Shown piece after piece: positions 5,227 through 13,356 of a stretch of 64,000 bases of DNA. Every line of letters starts with the position of its first letter. Positions within the stretch are counted from its first letter, which is position 1. Under the pieces are notes generated by a model, which was not told the DNA's origin, ran no database searches, and saw only the letters and a program-made list of their open reading frames with translations. Position numbers and translations under genes: made by a program. The stretch is from Haloarchaeobius amylolyticus (lineage in GTDB: Archaea; Halobacteriota; Halobacteria; Halobacteriales; Natrialbaceae): positions 372,001 through 436,000 of the forward strand of contig NZ_JANHDH010000002.1 in the NCBI RefSeq assembly GCF_026616195.1. The letters are read 5' to 3'.

Positions 5227-5952
5227 GTGATAGGTGGCAGCACCGAGTGGGGCGACTACCTGACGGACCGACTGCTCGAACGAATCGAGGACCTTCCTGC
5301 GGCCCCCGACCCGGGACACTACGTCGTCGTCGACGTGATGCACTTCTCGACCACGGTCGTGGAACTGCTCGCGAACGGCGCCGAGTACGTCCACGTGACC
5401 GCGGAACGTGGCGACGAGTTCGCCTTCCGCGAGACCTACCCCGACGCACGCATCGGCGGCGGCTCGACCCCCGACTACGAGCCGACCGAGGGCTACGACT
5501 TCTTCAACTCGCCGAGCTACGTCCAGGGCATCGACGTGGCGGGGCGGCCGGTCGCGATGACCTCCTCGAACGGTGGCCGGGCCATCGACCGACTGCTCGA
5601 CGCCGACGGCGCCAGCGTCTACGTCGGCTCGACGACGAACGCGGCCGCGCTCGGCCAGCACCTCCGCGAGGTCGACGGCCCGGTCCACCTCGTCGCGGCC
5701 GGGAAGGACGGCGAGCCCGCGACCGAGGACACCATCGGGGCGCTCCTCATCGGCCGCCACATGGCCGGGCTCCCCCTCGAACCCGTCGAGGAAGCGCTCT
5801 TCCGCGAGCAACTGGAGTACGCGAAAGGCCCGAACTATCCCGACAAGAACGAGATCCGAAGCAGCGACGTGCGCGACTACGCGATGTCGCTGTCGACCCG
5901 CGACGTGGTCCCGCGACTCGACGGCCGCCGGCTGGTCGACCTGGCGAGCTAG
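5227..5952 (+). CDS. comB: ComB-family 2-phosphosulfolactate phosphatase
   Basis: A 241-residue protein (GTG start) matching the ComB family: VVVDVMHFSTTVVELLANGA near the N-terminus, MTSSNGGRAI in the middle, then VYVGSTTNAAAL and a conserved DTIGALLIG. ComB hydrolyses 2-phosphosulfolactate to sulfolactate in coenzyme M synthesis. No other com gene is nearby and haloarchaea are not methanogens, so the physiological substrate is uncertain; sulfolactate metabolism or a housecleaning phosphatase are possible. It ends convergently with the next gene: the two stop codons overlap in one palindromic CTAG (5949-5952). Confidence 0.82.
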   Translation: MIGGSTEWGDYLTDRLLERIEDLPAAPDPGHYVVVDVMHFSTTVVELLANGAEYVHVTAERGDEFAFRETYPDARIGGGSTPDYEPTEGYDFFNSPSYVQGIDVAGRPVAMTSSNGGRAIDRLLDADGASVYVGSTTNAAALGQHLREVDGPVHLVAAGKDGEPATEDTIGALLIGRHMAGLPLEPVEEALFREQLEYAKGPNYPDKNEIRSSDVRDYAMSLSTRDVVPRLDGRRLVDLAS

Positions 5953-7004
5953 TCCCGGGATTCGTCGTCGTCCGAGCCGTCATCCGTTGCTGCAGCCTCG
6001 GCCAGCTCTGCGTAGGCCCGCCACGCCGGGTCCTCCTCGGGGTGGTCGAGGCGTTCGCCGTCGACGCTGACACCTGCGCCGTCGGTGATTCGCCCAGCGT
6101 CGGCGACGGGTGTCCCACGTTCGCGCAGTGCCGCGAGCACGTCGTCGACGCCCTCGGGACGAACCGCGACGAGGAGCGTCCCGGAGGTGGTCGACGCCCA
6201 GGGGTCCATGTCGAGCGCGGCGCAGACCGCGCGAACGTCGTCGCCCACCGGGACCGCGTCGGGGTCGAAGTCGATGCCGACGCCGGCGGTCTCGGCGAGT
6301 TCGACCAGCGCGCCGTGGAGGCCGCACTCGGTCGCGTCGTGCATCGCGGTGACCGGTCCCGAGGCCGCCGCGACCAGCGCGTCTCGGACGTGGCCCGTCT
6401 CGGGCAGGCGGTCCGCGAGGGCGTCGAGGTCCGCGTCCGTCCCGGCGTCGCGGAGCTGGTCCGGGTAGAGGTTCGCGAACAGCGCCGTGGCCTCGACCGC
6501 GGGCCCGTGCGTGACGAGGAGGTGGTCGCCCGGCCGGGCACCGTCTGGCCGGATCACGTCGTCGTGGTCCCCGACACCGAGCACGGTCGCGCCGCCGACC
6601 CACGGGAACGAGCAGCCGTGGTAGCGCGCGGTGTGCCCGGTCAGGACCGCGGTCCCGAGGTCGTCGAGTTCGTCGTGCATCGTCGTCCAGACCGCCGCGA
6701 ACTCCTCGTCGGTCATCGCCGGCGGCAGGGTGAACTCGATGGCGAGGTGGCTCGGCGGGATGCCGGAGACGGCCACGTCCGCGAGGACGACGCCGAGGGC
6801 GAACCGGGCCGCACGGTCCCAGCCGAGGTCCGGGAGGATGGAGATGGGGTCCGTGGCGGTCACGACCGCGGTCCCGCCCGCGTCCAGCACGCCGAAGTCG
6901 ACGCCGTGGCGGGGGCCGAGCGCCACGTCCGCGCGCTCGGCGCCGAGGTTGGGGTAGATGTGCTGGTCGAAGAACTCGCGGTCGATCTTCCCACGGTCGG
7001 TCAT
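5949..7004 (-). CDS. AIR synthase-related (PurM/HypE-like) protein
   Basis: A 351-residue member of the PurM/HypE/SelD ATP-binding superfamily: an N-terminal domain with TATDPISILPDLGW (the conserved Asp-Pro metal/phosphate region), a VLTGHTARY turn, and the C-terminal domain with GPVTAMHDATECGLHGALVELAETAG, a HypE-like signature. HypE makes the nickel ligand thiocyanate for NiFe hydrogenases, but no hydrogenase maturation gene is present and the usual C-terminal PRIC tail of HypE is absent (the end is an acidic DDGSDDDESRD). It is therefore a stand-alone AIR synthase-like ATPase of unknown substrate. Confidence 0.78.
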   Translation of the reverse strand: MTDRGKIDREFFDQHIYPNLGAERADVALGPRHGVDFGVLDAGGTAVVTATDPISILPDLGWDRAARFALGVVLADVAVSGIPPSHLAIEFTLPPAMTDEEFAAVWTTMHDELDDLGTAVLTGHTARYHGCSFPWVGGATVLGVGDHDDVIRPDGARPGDHLLVTHGPAVEATALFANLYPDQLRDAGTDADLDALADRLPETGHVRDALVAAASGPVTAMHDATECGLHGALVELAETAGVGIDFDPDAVPVGDDVRAVCAALDMDPWASTTSGTLLVAVRPEGVDDVLAALRERGTPVADAGRITDGAGVSVDGERLDHPEEDPAWRAYAELAEAAATDDGSDDDESRD

Positions 7005-7045: not shown

Positions 7046-8092
7046 TCAGCCCAGCCAGGCCGGGTCCGGAAGGACGTTCGGGTCGCCGAGCACGCCGGTC
7101 GCGGCGAGCAGGCTGACCGCCAGCGTGGTCACGACGATGCTCGCCGCGGGCGGGTCGAGGTGGGTGTCGGCGTGGGCGTACAGCACGCGCTGGCTCACCT
7201 CGCCGGCGAGCGCGCCGAACAGGCCGGCGCCCGCACCCAGCAGGATGGCCTGCCAGAGCGGGAGCGCCGCCGCGAGTGCGCCGGGGGTCGCTGCGCCGCC
7301 AGCCGCCGCCACGACCGCGAACCCGGCGGGGAGCGTCATGTGGTGGGTGACCGGCACCTGGTCGACACCGGCGTTGACGTACACGAGGAGCAGGACGCTC
7401 ACGCCGAAGCCGAGGAAGACGCTCGCCGTCAGGTAGGTGAGGTACGCGCCGAGCACACCGAAGGCCAGGCCGAACAGCGAGACGCCCGCCCACTCGTACT
7501 GGTAGGGGAGCCACGGTTCGACGGCGTGACGCGTCTCGCCACCGTCGGTGACGAACCGCTTCTCGTCGCGCTCGAAGGGGGTCATATCGAGGAATCCCCG
7601 CCTCGTCCCGAGAAGCGAGTAGCCGAAGACGGCACGATGGAGCAGCGCCGACGCGACCACGCCGAAGGCGACCGGGTCCCAGGGCATCGCGAGCGCGGAG
7701 ACCGTCTTCAGCAGGTGGCCGGCGACCCCGAAGGCGCCGCCGACGAGCAGCACGTCGACCCTCGTCCCGAGGCCACGCGTGACGTTCTTCGCCTCGTGGT
7801 AGTCGAAGTCGGTGTCGACGTAGCCCTGCTTCGCGGCGTAGGCGACCGCGGCCGCGCCGCCGCCGAAACTGACGTGGGGCCCGAACACCGGCCCGAAGGC
7901 GAGGCTGCCGGTCAGTACCAGCTCAGGTGCGCCGGTCGCGAGCGTCTCACGCCCGAGGTCGTACAGCTCGCCGACGACCACGAGGACGCCCGTGACGGTG
8001 AACGCGGGGAGGGCGCCGACCGCCGCGCCGAACACGCCACCGGCGAACGCCGCCAGCAGCAGTTCGAGCGCCCAGAGGTCACCGACTGCCAT
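7046..8092 (-). CDS. polytopic membrane protein of an ars operon, candidate metalloid transporter
   Basis: A 348-residue protein with roughly nine or ten membrane helices rich in Gly and Ala (for example FAGGVFGAAVGALPAF and GAGAGLFGALAGEV) and several conserved-looking polar residues in helices (GPHVSFGG, VPVTHHMTLPAG). I do not recognise it as ArsB, Acr3, a phosphate permease or any other named carrier. It is the third gene of a tight arsR-arsC operon; its start overlaps the end of arsC by 14 bases, which implies translational coupling. Since arsenate reduction yields arsenite that must be exported and no known exporter is present, an efflux role is a reasonable inference, not a demonstration. 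Confidence 0.6.
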   Translation of the reverse strand: MAVGDLWALELLLAAFAGGVFGAAVGALPAFTVTGVLVVVGELYDLGRETLATGAPELVLTGSLAFGPVFGPHVSFGGGAAAVAYAAKQGYVDTDFDYHEAKNVTRGLGTRVDVLLVGGAFGVAGHLLKTVSALAMPWDPVAFGVVASALLHRAVFGYSLLGTRRGFLDMTPFERDEKRFVTDGGETRHAVEPWLPYQYEWAGVSLFGLAFGVLGAYLTYLTASVFLGFGVSVLLLVYVNAGVDQVPVTHHMTLPAGFAVVAAAGGAATPGALAAALPLWQAILLGAGAGLFGALAGEVSQRVLYAHADTHLDPPAASIVVTTLAVSLLAATGVLGDPNVLPDPAWLG

Positions 8093-8486
8093 CGTCGAGT
8101 TCGTCGAACAGTGCTGTCACGCGCGACGCGATCTCGTCGCGAATCTCCGCGACTGCTTCCGGCGACTTCCCGTCGGGGTCGGTGAGGTCCCAGTCGCGCA
8201 CGTCGACGTCGGTGTTCAGCGAGAGGGTCGAGCAGCCCATCGTCGCCACCACGTCGCAGGATTCGAGTTCCTCGTCGGACACCTCGCGCGGCGTCCGGTC
8301 CGAGATGTCGATGCCGAGCTCCTGCATCGAGTCGACGACCTCCTCGTGGACGTGTTCGGCGGGGAGGGTCCCACCCGTCACGATGTCCCAGTCGAGGCCG
8401 CGTTCGTCGCGCTCGCGCTCGGCGAAGGCGGTCGCCATCTGGCTGCGCCCGGCGTTCTGCACGCAGACGAACCCGAGCGTCGTCAT
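8079..8486 (-). CDS. arsC: arsenate reductase / low-molecular-weight tyrosine phosphatase family
   Basis: A 135-residue protein starting MTTLGFVCVQNAGRSQMA. The C-x5-R phosphate loop (C8-V-Q-N-A-G-R14-S) is that of LMW phosphatases and thioredoxin-coupled ArsC. A second cysteine pair lies in ESCDVVATMGCS, and DWDLTDPDGKS supplies the conserved aspartate region. It should reduce arsenate to arsenite. It overlaps the upstream arsR by four bases (ATGA) and the downstream membrane gene by 14, so the three form one transcript. A pure phosphatase is the alternative; the arsR neighbour favours ArsC. Confidence 0.85.
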   Translation of the reverse strand: MTTLGFVCVQNAGRSQMATAFAERERDERGLDWDIVTGGTLPAEHVHEEVVDSMQELGIDISDRTPREVSDEELESCDVVATMGCSTLSLNTDVDVRDWDLTDPDGKSPEAVAEIRDEIASRVTALFDELDDGSR

Positions 8487-8878
8487 CGGTCCACCTCCGG
8501 CTCGTCGACGGCGGCGAGCAGCGCCTCGGCGCGGTCCGTCGTCCGGTAGTACCGCCACTTGCCCTCCTTGCGGCGGGCGACGAGGCCGGCACCTGTCAGG
8601 TCCGAGAGCGCGTGGCTGATGGCGCTCTCGCTCACGTCCAGCAGCGGGTCGAACTCGCAGACGCAGAGTTCGCCGTCGGCCGCCGCCAGCAGGCGCACGA
8701 TGCGGTAGCGCGTCTCGTTCGCGAGCGCGCCGAAGACCCCGACGTCGTCGTCGCCCCGGTCGAGGGCGGCCTCGGTCCGGAGGTCGTCCAGTTCGGCGAC
8801 GCGGGCGGCCACGTCGGTGTCACAGCACTCGCCAGCCTGGTCGGCGATGAGGCGCTCCAGGCGCTCGGTCTGAGCCAT
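8483..8878 (-). CDS. arsR: ArsR-family metalloregulatory repressor
   Basis: A 131-residue winged-helix protein. GALANETRYRIVRLLAAADGELCVCEFDPLLDVSESAISHALSDL carries the HTH, and the ELCVCE motif in the recognition helix region matches the As(III)-binding cysteines of classical ArsR (ELCVCDL). A further GECCD near the N-terminus could add a metal site. First gene of the arsR-arsC-membrane protein operon. The inverted repeat at 8883-8902 lies between its TATA-like box and start codon, consistent with autorepression relieved by arsenite or antimonite. Confidence 0.9.
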   Translation of the reverse strand: MAQTERLERLIADQAGECCDTDVAARVAELDDLRTEAALDRGDDDVGVFGALANETRYRIVRLLAAADGELCVCEFDPLLDVSESAISHALSDLTGAGLVARRKEGKWRYYRTTDRAEALLAAVDEPEVDR

Positions 8879-8882
8879 ATCT

Positions 8883-8902
8883 GAACGATTCAGCAATCGT
8901 TC
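8883..8902 (-). promoter_or_regulatory. arsR operator: GAACGATT-N4-AATCGTTC
   Basis: Perfect 8-base inverted repeat (8883-8890 and 8895-8902) directly between the start codon of arsR (8878) and a TATA-like TTTATC on the minus strand (about 8904-8909). That TATA box predicts transcription start at about 8880, so the repeat covers the start site, the expected position for an ArsR repressor. Confidence 0.65.
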
Positions 8903-8920
8903 GGATAAACGCTCTGGTCG

Positions 8921-8950
8921 GTTCACAGTTCCTGTGACGGACGTTCACAG
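8921..8950. repeat. GTTCACAG direct repeats upstream of the ars promoter
   Basis: GTTCACAG occurs at 8921-8928 and 8943-8950, a 22-base period (about two helical turns). The first copy also forms TCACAG-TTC-CTGTGA (8923-8937), a perfect 6-base-arm palindrome. They sit just upstream of the TATA/BRE region of arsR and could bind a second regulator. Confidence 0.4.
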
Positions 8951-8976
8951 GATGAGCGCTATCGAGACGGGGCGGC

Positions 8977-9423: not shown

Positions 9424-9498
9424 AGGTGAACATACGATGCGGGGGGAGAAGGCCGTTCCCCCGGGGCCTATTTGGGGCTGGCCGCCGGACTCGGTCGC

Positions 9499-10086
9499 AT
9501 GACCGGGAGACGCGCGGGCCTCGTCCTCGCCGGCGGGTTCTCGACCCGTTTCGGCGACCGTGACAAGGCGGTCGCGGCCTACGACGGCGAGCCGATGGTC
9601 CGCCGGGTCGTCCGGCGCGTCGGGGAGGTGACAGACGGCGTGGTGGTGAACTGCCGGGCCGAACAGGTGCCGGCGCTCCGGACCGAACTGTCCGGGTATC
9701 CCCGGGTCGCGCTCGCGGTGGACCCGGTTCCCGACCGCGGGCCGATGGCGGGTATCTGGGCGGGGCTTCGTGCGATTCGCGCCCCCTACACCGCGGTCGT
9801 GGCCTGCGACATGCCACAGGTGGACCCCGAGTTCCTCGAACTGCTCTTCGAGCGCGCTGCCGGGGCCGACGGCGCCCTGGTCCGGACCGACGACGGCTGG
9901 TTCCAGACCACGCAGGCGGTCTACCGGACCGACGCGATGCGGGCGGCCTGCGAGCAGGTGCTCGGGGGCGAGGACGCCCGCATCCTCGCGGCGCTCGACA
10001 GGCTGACGATACGGGAACTATCCGAGAACGCGGTGCCGGACATGACGACGTTCACGGACGTGAACGAGGTTGGAGACCTGCCGTAG
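9499..10086 (+). CDS. mobA: molybdenum cofactor guanylyltransferase MobA
   Basis: A 195-residue nucleotidyltransferase: GLVLAGGFSTRFGDRDKA is the GTP-binding loop (LAGGxSxRFGxDK), DRGPMAGIWAGL and VVACDMPQVDPEFL are the family's conserved second and third motifs with the metal-binding Asp. It attaches GMP to molybdopterin to make the guanine dinucleotide cofactor used by DMSO-reductase-family enzymes such as the adjacent formate dehydrogenase. The ATG at 9499 is about 27 bases after a TATA-like CTATTTGG, so the mRNA is probably leaderless. Converges with yqeC, 12 bases apart. Confidence 0.9.
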   Translation: MTGRRAGLVLAGGFSTRFGDRDKAVAAYDGEPMVRRVVRRVGEVTDGVVVNCRAEQVPALRTELSGYPRVALAVDPVPDRGPMAGIWAGLRAIRAPYTAVVACDMPQVDPEFLELLFERAAGADGALVRTDDGWFQTTQAVYRTDAMRAACEQVLGGEDARILAALDRLTIRELSENAVPDMTTFTDVNEVGDLP

Positions 10087-10098
10087 GTGGGGCCTCCC

Positions 10099-10830
10099 CT
10101 AGACGACGTCGACCACCGGGTCGTCCTCGTCCAGCAGACACGTCAGGACCACGCGGTCGACGCGGTCGCTCTGGTCGTAGATCTCGGCGGCGACCTCGCG
10201 GGCGGTGGCCTCGAGGTCGTCGTCGTCGACCATGTTCAGGACCGGGACGACGGTCGCGTCCTCGGGAACGTTCTTCAGCCCGCCGTCGGGGTCGGTGAGC
10301 ACCTGCGCGACGTGGCGCGCCGTGATGACACCGCCGATGCGCATGTTGGTGATGTCGACGACTGACTCGGGCCGGTGGACCACGAGGTCCGAGAGCGCCT
10401 GGCCGACGATCTGGACGCTGACCATCGGGCAGACGGCGTCGGTGGTCGCCGGAATCATCGGTTCGAGGTCGCCGGGCGCCTTGAACAGTTTCCCGCGCGC
10501 CCCGTCGGCCTTGACGAGGACGGGCACGTCGGCGGCCTCGGAGAGTTCTGCGACGGTCTCGACGTCGTAGCCGCGGTAGCGGTCCTTGCGGTCCTGTTCG
10601 CGGACCAGTCCCAGCGGCCAGTCGTCGGGCTGGGCGTCGGCGAGGGCGGTGACGGGGTCCTCGGTCGCCACGACCCGGCCGACGTGGCCGTCGAAGATGG
10701 GGATGCGGACCGTGCTGGTGACGACCGCCTCGTGGAGGTCGCGCGCGAGGGTGTAGAGCAGGGACTTCTTCCCGCCCGCACCGACCACGCAGACCGTGCC
10801 CTCGCTCGGGACGGCCTCCGTCAGTCGCAC
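10099..10830 (-). CDS. yqeC: YqeC-family putative selenium/molybdenum cofactor biosynthesis protein
   Basis: A 243-residue protein with a GTG start. The N-terminal P-loop-like GAGGKKSLLYTLAR (from residue 17), TSTVRI, the VLVKADGARGKLFKAPGDLEPMIP block and a long RIGGVITARHVAQVL segment match the YqeC family. In bacteria this family is linked to selenium-dependent molybdenum hydroxylases. Here it overlaps the end of fdhA by 10 bases, so the two are co-transcribed, and no selD, selA or molybdenum hydroxylase gene is visible. Its role may thus be in cofactor maturation for the formate dehydrogenase. Confidence 0.8.
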   Translation of the reverse strand: MRLTEAVPSEGTVCVVGAGGKKSLLYTLARDLHEAVVTSTVRIPIFDGHVGRVVATEDPVTALADAQPDDWPLGLVREQDRKDRYRGYDVETVAELSEAADVPVLVKADGARGKLFKAPGDLEPMIPATTDAVCPMVSVQIVGQALSDLVVHRPESVVDITNMRIGGVITARHVAQVLTDPDGGLKNVPEDATVVPVLNMVDDDDLEATAREVAAEIYDQSDRVDRVVLTCLLDEDDPVVDVV

Positions 10831-12875
10831 GAGACCACCTCCACGCGGACCGCGCTGTGCTTGTATTCGGGAATCTTCGCCTCGGGGTCGAGGGTGTCGC
10901 CGGTGAGCACGTTCACGAGTGGGTCATCGTCGTGGAAGGTCATGAATACCGCCCCACGGCGGATGGCCGGCGTCACCTCGGCGGCGACGGTCACCGCCCC
11001 GCGGTCGTTCTCGACGCGGACCGTCTCGCCGTCCTCGATGCCCCTCGCTTCGGCATCGTCGGGGTGTATCTGGAGCGTCTCGGCGCCCCGGAGGCGCAGC
11101 AGGGTGTCCGAGCGACGGGTGACCGCGCCGCTGTTGAAGTGCTCGATGACCCGGCCCGTGGTGAGCACGAGGTCGTCCTCGGCGACGGGGTCGACGGGGT
11201 CGACGTGCTCGACCACCCGGAACTCGGCGGTCCGGTCACCGTGCTCGAACCGGTCGACGTGGAGCACGTCGGTCCCCGACTCGGCACCTTCGGGGAAGGG
11301 CCAGCGCAGGCTCCCGTCGCCGATGTTCTCGTAGCGCATCCCGCCGTAGATGGGCGTGGCGCGGGTGAGTTCCGCGAACACCTGCGCCGGGCTGTCGTAC
11401 TCGAAGGCGTCGTCGGTGATGCGCCGGCCGAGTTCCCGGATGATGGCGAGGTCGGTCCGGGCGTCGCCCGGCGGGGTCGTGTTCGGGCGCATGCGCATGA
11501 CCTGCCGGTCGGTGTTCGTGACGGTGCCCTCCTTCTCGGCCCACGCGCTGCCCGGGAGGACCACGTCGGCGTACTCGGTGGTCTCGCTCGGGAAGATGTC
11601 GTGGACGACGAGGAAGCACTCCTCGAGCTGTTCGCGCACCCGGGACTGGTTCGGCTCCGTGACGGCCACGTTCTCGGCGAAGACGTAGGCGGCGTGGACC
11701 GACTCGCCCATCGCGTGGGTCGCCTCGACCTCGGTCAGGCCGGGGGCGGCGGGAATCGCGGCCGGGTCGACGCCCCACACGTCGGCGAGGTCGGCGCGGC
11801 CCTCGTCGTCGGTGACGGGGCGATAGCCGGGCAGGACCGAGGGAAGCGCGCCCACGTCGCCGGCGCCCTGCACGTTGTTCTGGCCGCGGAGGGGGTTGAC
11901 GCCCGAGCCGGGTTTGCCGACGTTCCCGGTCAGGAGCGCGAGATTGAGCAGCGCGTGGACGTTGGCGGTCCCGCAGTGGTGCTGGCTCATGCCCATCCCG
12001 GTGAAGATGGCGGCGGCGTCGGCCTCGCCGTAGGCGCGCGCCGCGGCCCGGAGGTCCTCGGGGTCGACGCCCGCCTGTTCGGCCGCCGCGTCGACGTCCA
12101 CCTCCCCGAGGAACTGCTTCAGGGGGCCGAACTCGGTCGTCCGGTCGGCGATGAACCCGGCGTCGACCAGCCCCTCCTCGACGACGACCGCGGCCATCGC
12201 GTTCAGCAGCGGAATGTCGTACCCCGGGCGCACGGGCAGGTGGTGGTCGGCAGCCTCCGTGGTGTCGGTCGCCCGCGGGTCGACGTGTATCATCGTCGTC
12301 CCCTGCTTGATGGCCGGGAGCAGGTACGACCGGAAGATGACGGGGTGGTTCACCGCCGGGTTCGCGCCCACGACGAGGAAGCAGTCGGCCTCGGTGAGGT
12401 CGTCGAGGGTGTTCGTCATCGCGCCCGCACCGAAGCGCGCGCCCATCGCCGCGACCGTCGAGGAGTGACAGAGCCGCGCGCAGTTGTCCACGTTGTTCGT
12501 CCCGCACAGGCGTGCGACCTTCTGGAGCAGGTAGTTCTCCTCGTTCGTGCAGTTCGAGGAGGCGAAGAAGTACAGCGAGTCCGGCCCATGCTGGTCCAGG
12601 ACCGTACCGAACTCCTGCTCGATGCGCTTCCATGCCTCCTCCCAGCTCGCCTCGTGGAGCTTCCCGTCGCCCCGGCGGATCCGGGGGGTGGTCAGGCGCT
12701 CGTCGTCGGTGACCGCGTCGTAGGCCGCGACCCCCTTCGGGCAGACCTCGCCCTTGCGGTTGACCGGCCCGCGCCAGCCGGTCGCCTTCCCCGACGCCGG
12801 GGCGTACTCGATGCCGCAGCCGACCCCGCAGAACGGACAGATGCTGTGGGCTGGCTCGTGGGTACGGTCGTCCAT
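10821..12875 (-). CDS. fdhA: formate dehydrogenase catalytic subunit (molybdopterin, cysteine type)
   Basis: A 684-residue DMSO-reductase-family enzyme. The N-terminal [4Fe-4S] site is C13-x2-C16-x3-C20-x24-C45 followed by PKG. The catalytic motif NNVDNCARLCHSSTVAAM places Cys136 where E. coli FdhF has selenocysteine, with the next residue His conserved. Molybdopterin guanine dinucleotide domains follow and the C-terminal domain ends VRVEVVSCD. No ferredoxin or NAD-binding subunit is adjacent, so the electron acceptor is unknown. The ATG at 12875 is preferred; a TATA-like ATTTACG lies about 27 bases before it. An in-frame ATG at 12890 would add five residues. Confidence 0.87.
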   Translation of the reverse strand: MDDRTHEPAHSICPFCGVGCGIEYAPASGKATGWRGPVNRKGEVCPKGVAAYDAVTDDERLTTPRIRRGDGKLHEASWEEAWKRIEQEFGTVLDQHGPDSLYFFASSNCTNEENYLLQKVARLCGTNNVDNCARLCHSSTVAAMGARFGAGAMTNTLDDLTEADCFLVVGANPAVNHPVIFRSYLLPAIKQGTTMIHVDPRATDTTEAADHHLPVRPGYDIPLLNAMAAVVVEEGLVDAGFIADRTTEFGPLKQFLGEVDVDAAAEQAGVDPEDLRAAARAYGEADAAAIFTGMGMSQHHCGTANVHALLNLALLTGNVGKPGSGVNPLRGQNNVQGAGDVGALPSVLPGYRPVTDDEGRADLADVWGVDPAAIPAAPGLTEVEATHAMGESVHAAYVFAENVAVTEPNQSRVREQLEECFLVVHDIFPSETTEYADVVLPGSAWAEKEGTVTNTDRQVMRMRPNTTPPGDARTDLAIIRELGRRITDDAFEYDSPAQVFAELTRATPIYGGMRYENIGDGSLRWPFPEGAESGTDVLHVDRFEHGDRTAEFRVVEHVDPVDPVAEDDLVLTTGRVIEHFNSGAVTRRSDTLLRLRGAETLQIHPDDAEARGIEDGETVRVENDRGAVTVAAEVTPAIRRGAVFMTFHDDDPLVNVLTGDTLDPEAKIPEYKHSAVRVEVVSCD

Positions 12876-12948
12876 ACAGTCACGTGACACGCGGCAGGCG
12901 TAAATGTTCGCGACAGGCCTTATTGTTCCACTCGCGCTACTCTCCCGT

Positions 12949-13356
12949 ATGGTATCGACTGGTCATCGGCTGGAGGAGTCGGGAGGGAACGCGGCGACCA
13001 CCACGGTCGACGTGAAGTGCACCGGCCACGTCCGCACCGCGGTCGGCCAGCCGCGCATGGAGTACACCTTCGAGGGGGACACTCTCCGGGAGTTCCTCGA
13101 CGCGTTCCTCGAGGAGTACGACGTGGCGGACCTCCTCATCGCCGAGAGCGAGACGGAGTCGACCCACCGGGGCTGGGTCCCCGACGCGGAGGACCTCCCC
13201 GGTACCTGGCGGAAGAACCCGGAAGGCGAACAGAGCCGGCGCTACGCCCGTATCTGTGTCAACGGCCGGTTCAACGAGCACCTCGACGGGCTCGACACCG
13301 AGCTGGAAGCGGGCGACCGCGTCGCCCTGATGTACCCGTTCATCTACTGCTGCTGA
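12949..13356 (+). CDS. MoaD/ThiS-fold (ubiquitin-like) protein ending in Cys-Cys
   Basis: A 135-residue protein. Residues ~22-135 have a beta-grasp pattern: TVDVKCTGHVRTAVGQPRMEYTF, DTLREFLDAFLEEY, then ARICVNGRFNEHLDGLDTELEAGDRVALMYPFIYCC. The last strands correspond to the VNG...L..GDEVA.(I/L)PP segment of MoaD and SAMP proteins. Those normally end in Gly-Gly, which is adenylated; this one ends in Tyr-Cys-Cys. It is divergent from fdhA, and a TATA-like CTTATTG about 27 bases upstream suggests a leaderless mRNA. Function is unknown; a persulfide carrier or a degenerate modifier are possible. Confidence 0.65.
   Translation: MVSTGHRLEESGGNAATTTVDVKCTGHVRTAVGQPRMEYTFEGDTLREFLDAFLEEYDVADLLIAESETESTHRGWVPDAEDLPGTWRKNPEGEQSRRYARICVNGRFNEHLDGLDTELEAGDRVALMYPFIYCC

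Follow-up and report, generated by a model that had tools for sequence, protein, structure and literature searches.

An ars-linked branch of a predicted haloarchaeal glycerol transporter family provides a candidate arsenite facilitator in Haloarchaeobius amylolyticus

The window, that is, the whole stretch of 64,000 nucleotides that was analysed, belongs to contig 2 of the Haloarchaeobius amylolyticus genome (G000) and carries on its minus strand a compact operon in the order arsR, arsC and a gene for a membrane protein, here called MP, with overlaps of 4 bp between arsR and arsC and of 14 bp between arsC and MP. The first gene (arsR, 8483-8878, minus strand) encodes a metalloregulator of the ArsR/SmtB type of 131 aa, recognised by Pfam HTH_5 (1.1e-9) and by the NCBIfam metalloregulator model NF033788 (82.5 bits against a cut-off of 55), in which the motif ELCVCEF, with C72 and C74, is of the As(III)-sensor type. 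The second (arsC, 8079-8486, minus strand) encodes an arsenate reductase of the low-molecular-weight-phosphatase type of 135 aa (Pfam LMWPc, 3.4e-25) with cysteines at positions 8, 77 and 85; its product lies under the NCBIfam arsenate-reductase equivalog cut-offs (65.7 versus 157.6 bits), and the label arsC therefore relies on membership of the Pfam family together with the cysteines and neighbouring genes. The third gene (MP, 7046-8092, minus strand) encodes a ten-helix membrane protein of 348 aa that belongs to the ars branch of a haloarchaeal transporter family linked to the glycerol kinase gene glpK. The original prediction, made from the sequence of the window, had described the overlaps, which are confirmed, and had called both arsR and arsC clear, a description that holds for arsR and, at the level of the Pfam family but not of the equivalog, for arsC.

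A gene of the AIR-synthase/HypE/SelD-like type (5949-7004, minus strand; AIRS_C, 8.1e-26) lies 41 bp downstream of MP and is possibly the fourth gene of the ars transcription unit. It lies 3' of the ars genes in each of the six species of the genus examined, with or without MP in between; in particular, four other species show arsR-arsC followed directly by this gene, MP being absent there, and the AIRS-type gene may be a constant part of the ars unit of the genus. On the other side of the operon, positions 9472-13356 hold a molybdoenzyme patch that includes genes for a MobA-like protein, a protein of the YqeC type ("selenium cofactor biosynthesis", 159.6 bits against a cut-off of 73), a formate dehydrogenase alpha subunit (above cut-off) and a MoaD-like protein, and the SelD-like AIRS gene is located a few kb from this patch; a selenium link in a haloarchaeon would be worth following.

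The promoter region contains a TTTAT box-A-like element (8905-8909, minus strand) some 29 bp before the ATG of arsR, recognised in the sequence, a position that fits a leaderless or short-leader arsR transcript. Between this putative box A and the ATG, just upstream of the latter, the perfect inverted repeat GAACGATT-CAGC-AATCGTTC spans positions 8883-8902, confirming the operator-like repeat announced at the promoter; in shuffled sequence no such match was found in 64 kb, even with up to two mismatches allowed. Sixteen arsR genes of related loci are preceded by a site resembling TGAACA-NN-TGTTCA, mostly 23-25 bases upstream of the start codon and so at a spacing similar to that of the repeat in the window, with a summed match of 163 against a mean of 105 and a maximum of 116 in 1000 shuffles, and a variant form of this site is present in the window and in its nearest relative. 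The repeat at 8883-8902 is thus probably the ArsR operator, and this reading, in which ArsR would bind the repeat, is well based because of the repeat itself and of the similar sites at the other arsR genes. A second perfect 8-bp inverted repeat, TCCTGTGA-CGGACGT-TCACAGGA (8930-8952), lies upstream of the arsR promoter and is not retained in the nearest relative (G328).

MP itself showed no match to Pfam, NCBIfam or PDB sequences in profile and sequence searches, and an alignment of 26 of its relatives gave no credible match to the same three resources, PF03253 included. The proposed profile comparison with ArsB, Acr3 and ArsP was carried out and MP matched none of them; in agreement with what had been anticipated, the protein is unlike ArsB and Acr3 in Pfam and NCBIfam scans. 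The possibility that MP is a divergent member of the Acr3, ArsB, ArsP or MIP families was rejected, no match being found to TIGR00832, PF02040, PF03773 or PF00230.

The AlphaFold2 model of MP (mean pLDDT 90.5) consists of 5+5 long helices, in line with the roughly ten helices expected, and the same arrangement is predicted for a glpK-linked relative from Natrialba (mean pLDDT 86.2); an internal repeat is also indicated by the profile comparison of the N-terminal and C-terminal halves (P = 2e-5, probability 77%). Foldseek alone returned nothing below an E of 0.001 against the PDB, its matches being mostly MFS and ClC proteins (E 0.04-0.5, TM about 0.2). With a second aligner, urea transporters were all of the top 11 and top 14 matches of the two models (Z 7.3-8.1), with an rmsd of 4.7-6.3 A over 184-210 residues, a likeness too weak to show common descent, as the aligner itself warns that a Z of about 8 may reflect only a common arrangement; the next matches were mainly Rh/Amt channels, weak for both models (Z 5-6.3). 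The pattern of urea channels followed by ammonia channels, obtained twice, would suit a pore that passes small solutes without charge. The haloarchaea sampled have essentially no urea-transporter genes. Conserved cysteines were sought as possible As(III) ligands; MP lacks cysteine altogether and no cysteine position is conserved across the ars branch, so that a thiol-based arsenite site is unlikely, and their absence is as expected for a pore passing neutral As(OH)3.

The family to which MP belongs is widespread, with a homologue in 303 of the 391 haloarchaeal genomes sampled, yet no Pfam or NCBIfam model covering it was found. In the genome of H. amylolyticus a paralogue of MP (L002) with 57% identity begins 2 bp past the stop codon of glycerol kinase. 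Among 118 homologues whose neighbourhoods were examined, 65 adjoin glpK, 12 adjoin arsC and 2 adjoin a kinase that resembles GlpK; the remaining 39 have neither gene, including one (L110, 1120-2879) beside the dihydroxyacetone kinase genes Dak1 and Dak2, neighbours that broaden the polyol theme of the family. An FGGY kinase is also found as a neighbour in the family, and plasmid-borne bacterial relatives occur in Microbacterium (in the order MP-glpK-glpD), in Rubrobacter (in a polyol-type cluster with FGGY kinase, alcohol dehydrogenase and transketolase) and in Rhodococcus (with NDMA-dependent alcohol dehydrogenase, aldehyde dehydrogenase and acryloyl-CoA reductase). At two loci (L045, 3071-4033, and L047) MP homologues face a gene of the iron-containing alcohol dehydrogenase type, possibly a glycerol-1-phosphate dehydrogenase. 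A separate branch of the family (L009, L012 and L027) is located beside a CutA1-like gene and away from any ars or glycerol gene, as far as names read from the letters can tell, and in two of these three loci apparent ribosomal stalk genes also adjoin the homologue.

A membrane protein encoded beside glycerol kinase (e.g., rrnAC0550) was predicted by Anderson et al. in 2011 to be a haloarchaeal glycerol transporter, and its bacterial relatives were described as lying close to glycerol or alcohol genes (PMC3102087); the glpK neighbours and the bacterial cluster contexts described here repeat and extend that remark, and the passage of that paper devoted to the family does not mention arsenic. 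HVO_1542 was dropped as the published transporter, being glpK itself. MP is homologous to this family over its full length (the 57% identity refers to the paralogue in its own genome and not to rrnAC0550), and while the family mostly adjoins glpK, the MP of the window and 12 others adjoin arsC and form their own branch. MP is therefore to be considered a homologous branch and not a typical member of the family, because it adjoins arsC instead of glycerol kinase. A new family devoted to metalloids, as initially suspected, is not supported by these data, since the family is large, lies mostly beside glycerol kinase or polyol genes and was already predicted to transport glycerol.

The 13 ars-linked MPs come from five GTDB families and more, and arsC is present in all 13 operons and arsM in 3 of them. 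The gene order is arsR-arsC-MP in the window, G328, G273 and G298, arsR-arsC-arsC-MP in G211, arsR-arsC-arsM-MP in G305 and G070, and MP-arsR-arsC in two Halorarius species, while arsC-MP lies beside the pst/phoU phosphate genes in L003 and G104. The arsM products of two operons (L065 and L068) exceed the NCBIfam arsenite methyltransferase cut-off of 263 bits, with 334 and 351 bits. In G273, G211 and G070, which represent three families (L064, L067 and L068), the ars-MP operon lies between a DNA sliding-clamp gene and rlmE, and this shared position suggests old vertical descent in those three families.

In a search of the class with MP, all homologues above about 369 bits are ars-linked and the next lower ones are mostly glpK-linked. 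A further family-wide search gave a new high scorer (G400) whose ars linkage was predicted from its score and then found, in the order arsR-arsM-arsC-MP; among the weaker homologues of the same family that were newly fetched, glpK is the neighbour in all 17 whose flanks are complete, and another, on a short contig, shows neither gene. Phylogenetic trees place the ars MPs on one side of a branch, with values of 96/91 with 12 ars-linked rows and of 94/69, a moderate support, with 13, and the glpK-linked and other copies fall outside. L028, a long branch from a locus without ars genes, falls inside the ars branch in a quick tree and outside it in the careful 13-row tree. The ars MPs have branch-specific positions, e.g., G107, V141, Y44, Y220 and S318; residues that are strictly conserved throughout the family are common to the ars-linked and glpK-linked groups. 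Within the MP family, one branch carries the linkage to ars genes; the idea that homologues always accompany arsR and arsC fails for the family as a whole and holds, as regards arsC, for this branch.

The other exporters searched for in these genomes were Acr3, ArsB, aquaporins and ArsP. Acr3, sought with TIGR00832 (control genomes were positive), is above cut-off in 2 of the 13 ars-MP genomes versus 207 of the 383 others in the class sample (Fisher p = 0.009, a value that ignores shared ancestry). Neither ArsB (PF02040) nor the aquaporin family (MIP, PF00230) was found in any of eight ars-MP genomes, and ArsP-type genes, known for organic arsenicals, are present in five of the eight, this genome included, with two copies elsewhere in it. 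Within the genus, Acr3 is missing from the two species whose operon contains MP and present in three of the four whose operon does not. Among the families covered, most ars-MP genomes are without another exporter of inorganic arsenite.

The reading that we favour, and hold to be somewhat more likely than not, is that a family of membrane proteins for small, glycerol-type polyols gave rise to MP, which was recruited as an arsenite facilitator. Gene order, family membership, branch, co-occurrence and predicted fold are its basis; substrate, direction, regulation and the passive mode of transport are what we infer. The original proposal of a new metalloid transporter stands in so far as MP is a plausible replacement of ArsB/Acr3, with ars linkage in 13 of 13 members, arsM in three and Acr3 mostly lacking. 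In the proposed mechanism ArsR would bind near the start site and keep the operon repressed until As(III) releases it; arsenate would enter via phosphate uptake systems and be reduced by ArsC to arsenite, which at the pH of the cell is the uncharged As(OH)3 and matches glycerol in shape and in the arrangement of its hydroxyls; As(OH)3 would then leave through MP, down a gradient kept up by ArsC. The passage of arsenite through GlpF and AqpS is generally explained by this likeness to glycerol (PMC4435449, PMC6205960).

An active, ion-coupled arsenite/antimonite exporter derived from the polyol family, Acr3-like and not AqpS-like, would also suit the occupation by MP of the operon slot of Acr3/ArsB, mostly in genomes lacking both, and the passive mode of the parent family is itself a prediction; we regard such an exporter as unlikely, as the closest folds of the models are passive channels for urea and ammonia and MP has no cysteine, versus the conserved Cys of the pore helix of Acr3 (PMC4435449). 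MP may instead have remained a glycerol or polyol facilitator, placed among ars genes for another need, such as using glycerol or keeping its osmotic balance when the cell is under arsenic stress. The 57% identity with the glpK-linked paralogue and the strictly conserved residues common to both groups agree with this, but ars linkage in 13 of 13 cases over five GTDB families, the separate branch and its specific positions argue against it, as does the fact that the window genome, G328, G211, G298 and G070 also keep a glpK-linked copy, and we judge it quite improbable.

Two further readings concern the arsenic species carried. One, in which MP releases the methylated trivalent arsenic that ArsM makes and carries inorganic arsenite as a secondary substrate, is slightly less probable again: methylarsonous acid is also carried by aquaglyceroporins (PMC1440775), and arsM is found in 3 of the 13 operons, but the other 10 loci, the window included, have no arsM beside MP. 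The transport of arsenate, phosphate or an arsenate ester, a phosphate/arsenate carrier having been mentioned in the original prediction, is suggested by pst/phoU beside arsC-MP in L003 and L069; the other family members are associated with uncharged polyols and the predicted fold resembles pores for neutral solutes, so that this reading is less likely than arsenite and, in our estimate, very improbable.

The favoured reading of an arsenite facilitator has a wider and more tentative form, to which we give slightly short of an even chance: MP would represent a second, non-aquaporin class of metalloid channels, with a urea/ammonia-like fold that passes As(OH)3, derived from a glycerol facilitator, the parent family being the main haloarchaeal route of glycerol entry. 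As for the expulsion of arsenite by haloarchaea, arsB has no part in it in Halobacterium NRC-1, for which a new transporter has been put forward (review in PMC3600143); the ars-MP branch offers a concrete candidate in those of its own genomes where Acr3/ArsB are missing. A search of the open-access literature found no paper joining the glycerol-type family with ars operons; the predicted glycerol family and the presence of glycerol-type channels in ars operons were known separately.

In comparison with known systems, MP shares with urea transporters (SLC14/UT) the 5+5 helices with an internal repeat, without a match to PF03253, and its models resemble the Amt/Rh ammonia channels only at Z 5-6.3. 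Acr3 and ArsB occupy the same operon slot beside arsR/arsC; MP has no profile match to them, and most genomes with its branch lack both. A parallel in operon position is AqpS, found in the ars operon of Sinorhizobium meliloti and as an AqpS-ArsC fusion in Salinispora (PMC6205960, PMC4435449). In Sinorhizobium, AqpS replaces ArsB and lets out the arsenite made by ArsC, at the cost of sensitivity to external arsenite (PMC4435449, PMC6205960). AqpS and the other MIP aquaglyceroporins have six helices and two NPA motifs, whereas MP has ten helices, no NPA motif and no match to PF00230, and it is therefore not a member of the AqpS class. By analogy, the same logic is proposed for MP, in which ArsC makes arsenite inside the cell and a glycerol-type channel releases it, the place of ArsB/Acr3 being filled, as by AqpS, but by an unrelated protein. 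If this is true, an archaeal As(OH)3 channel would be an independent repeat of the bacterial recruitment of aquaglyceroporins, and the same chemistry would have brought two unrelated glycerol-type families into ars operons, a clear case of convergent recruitment.
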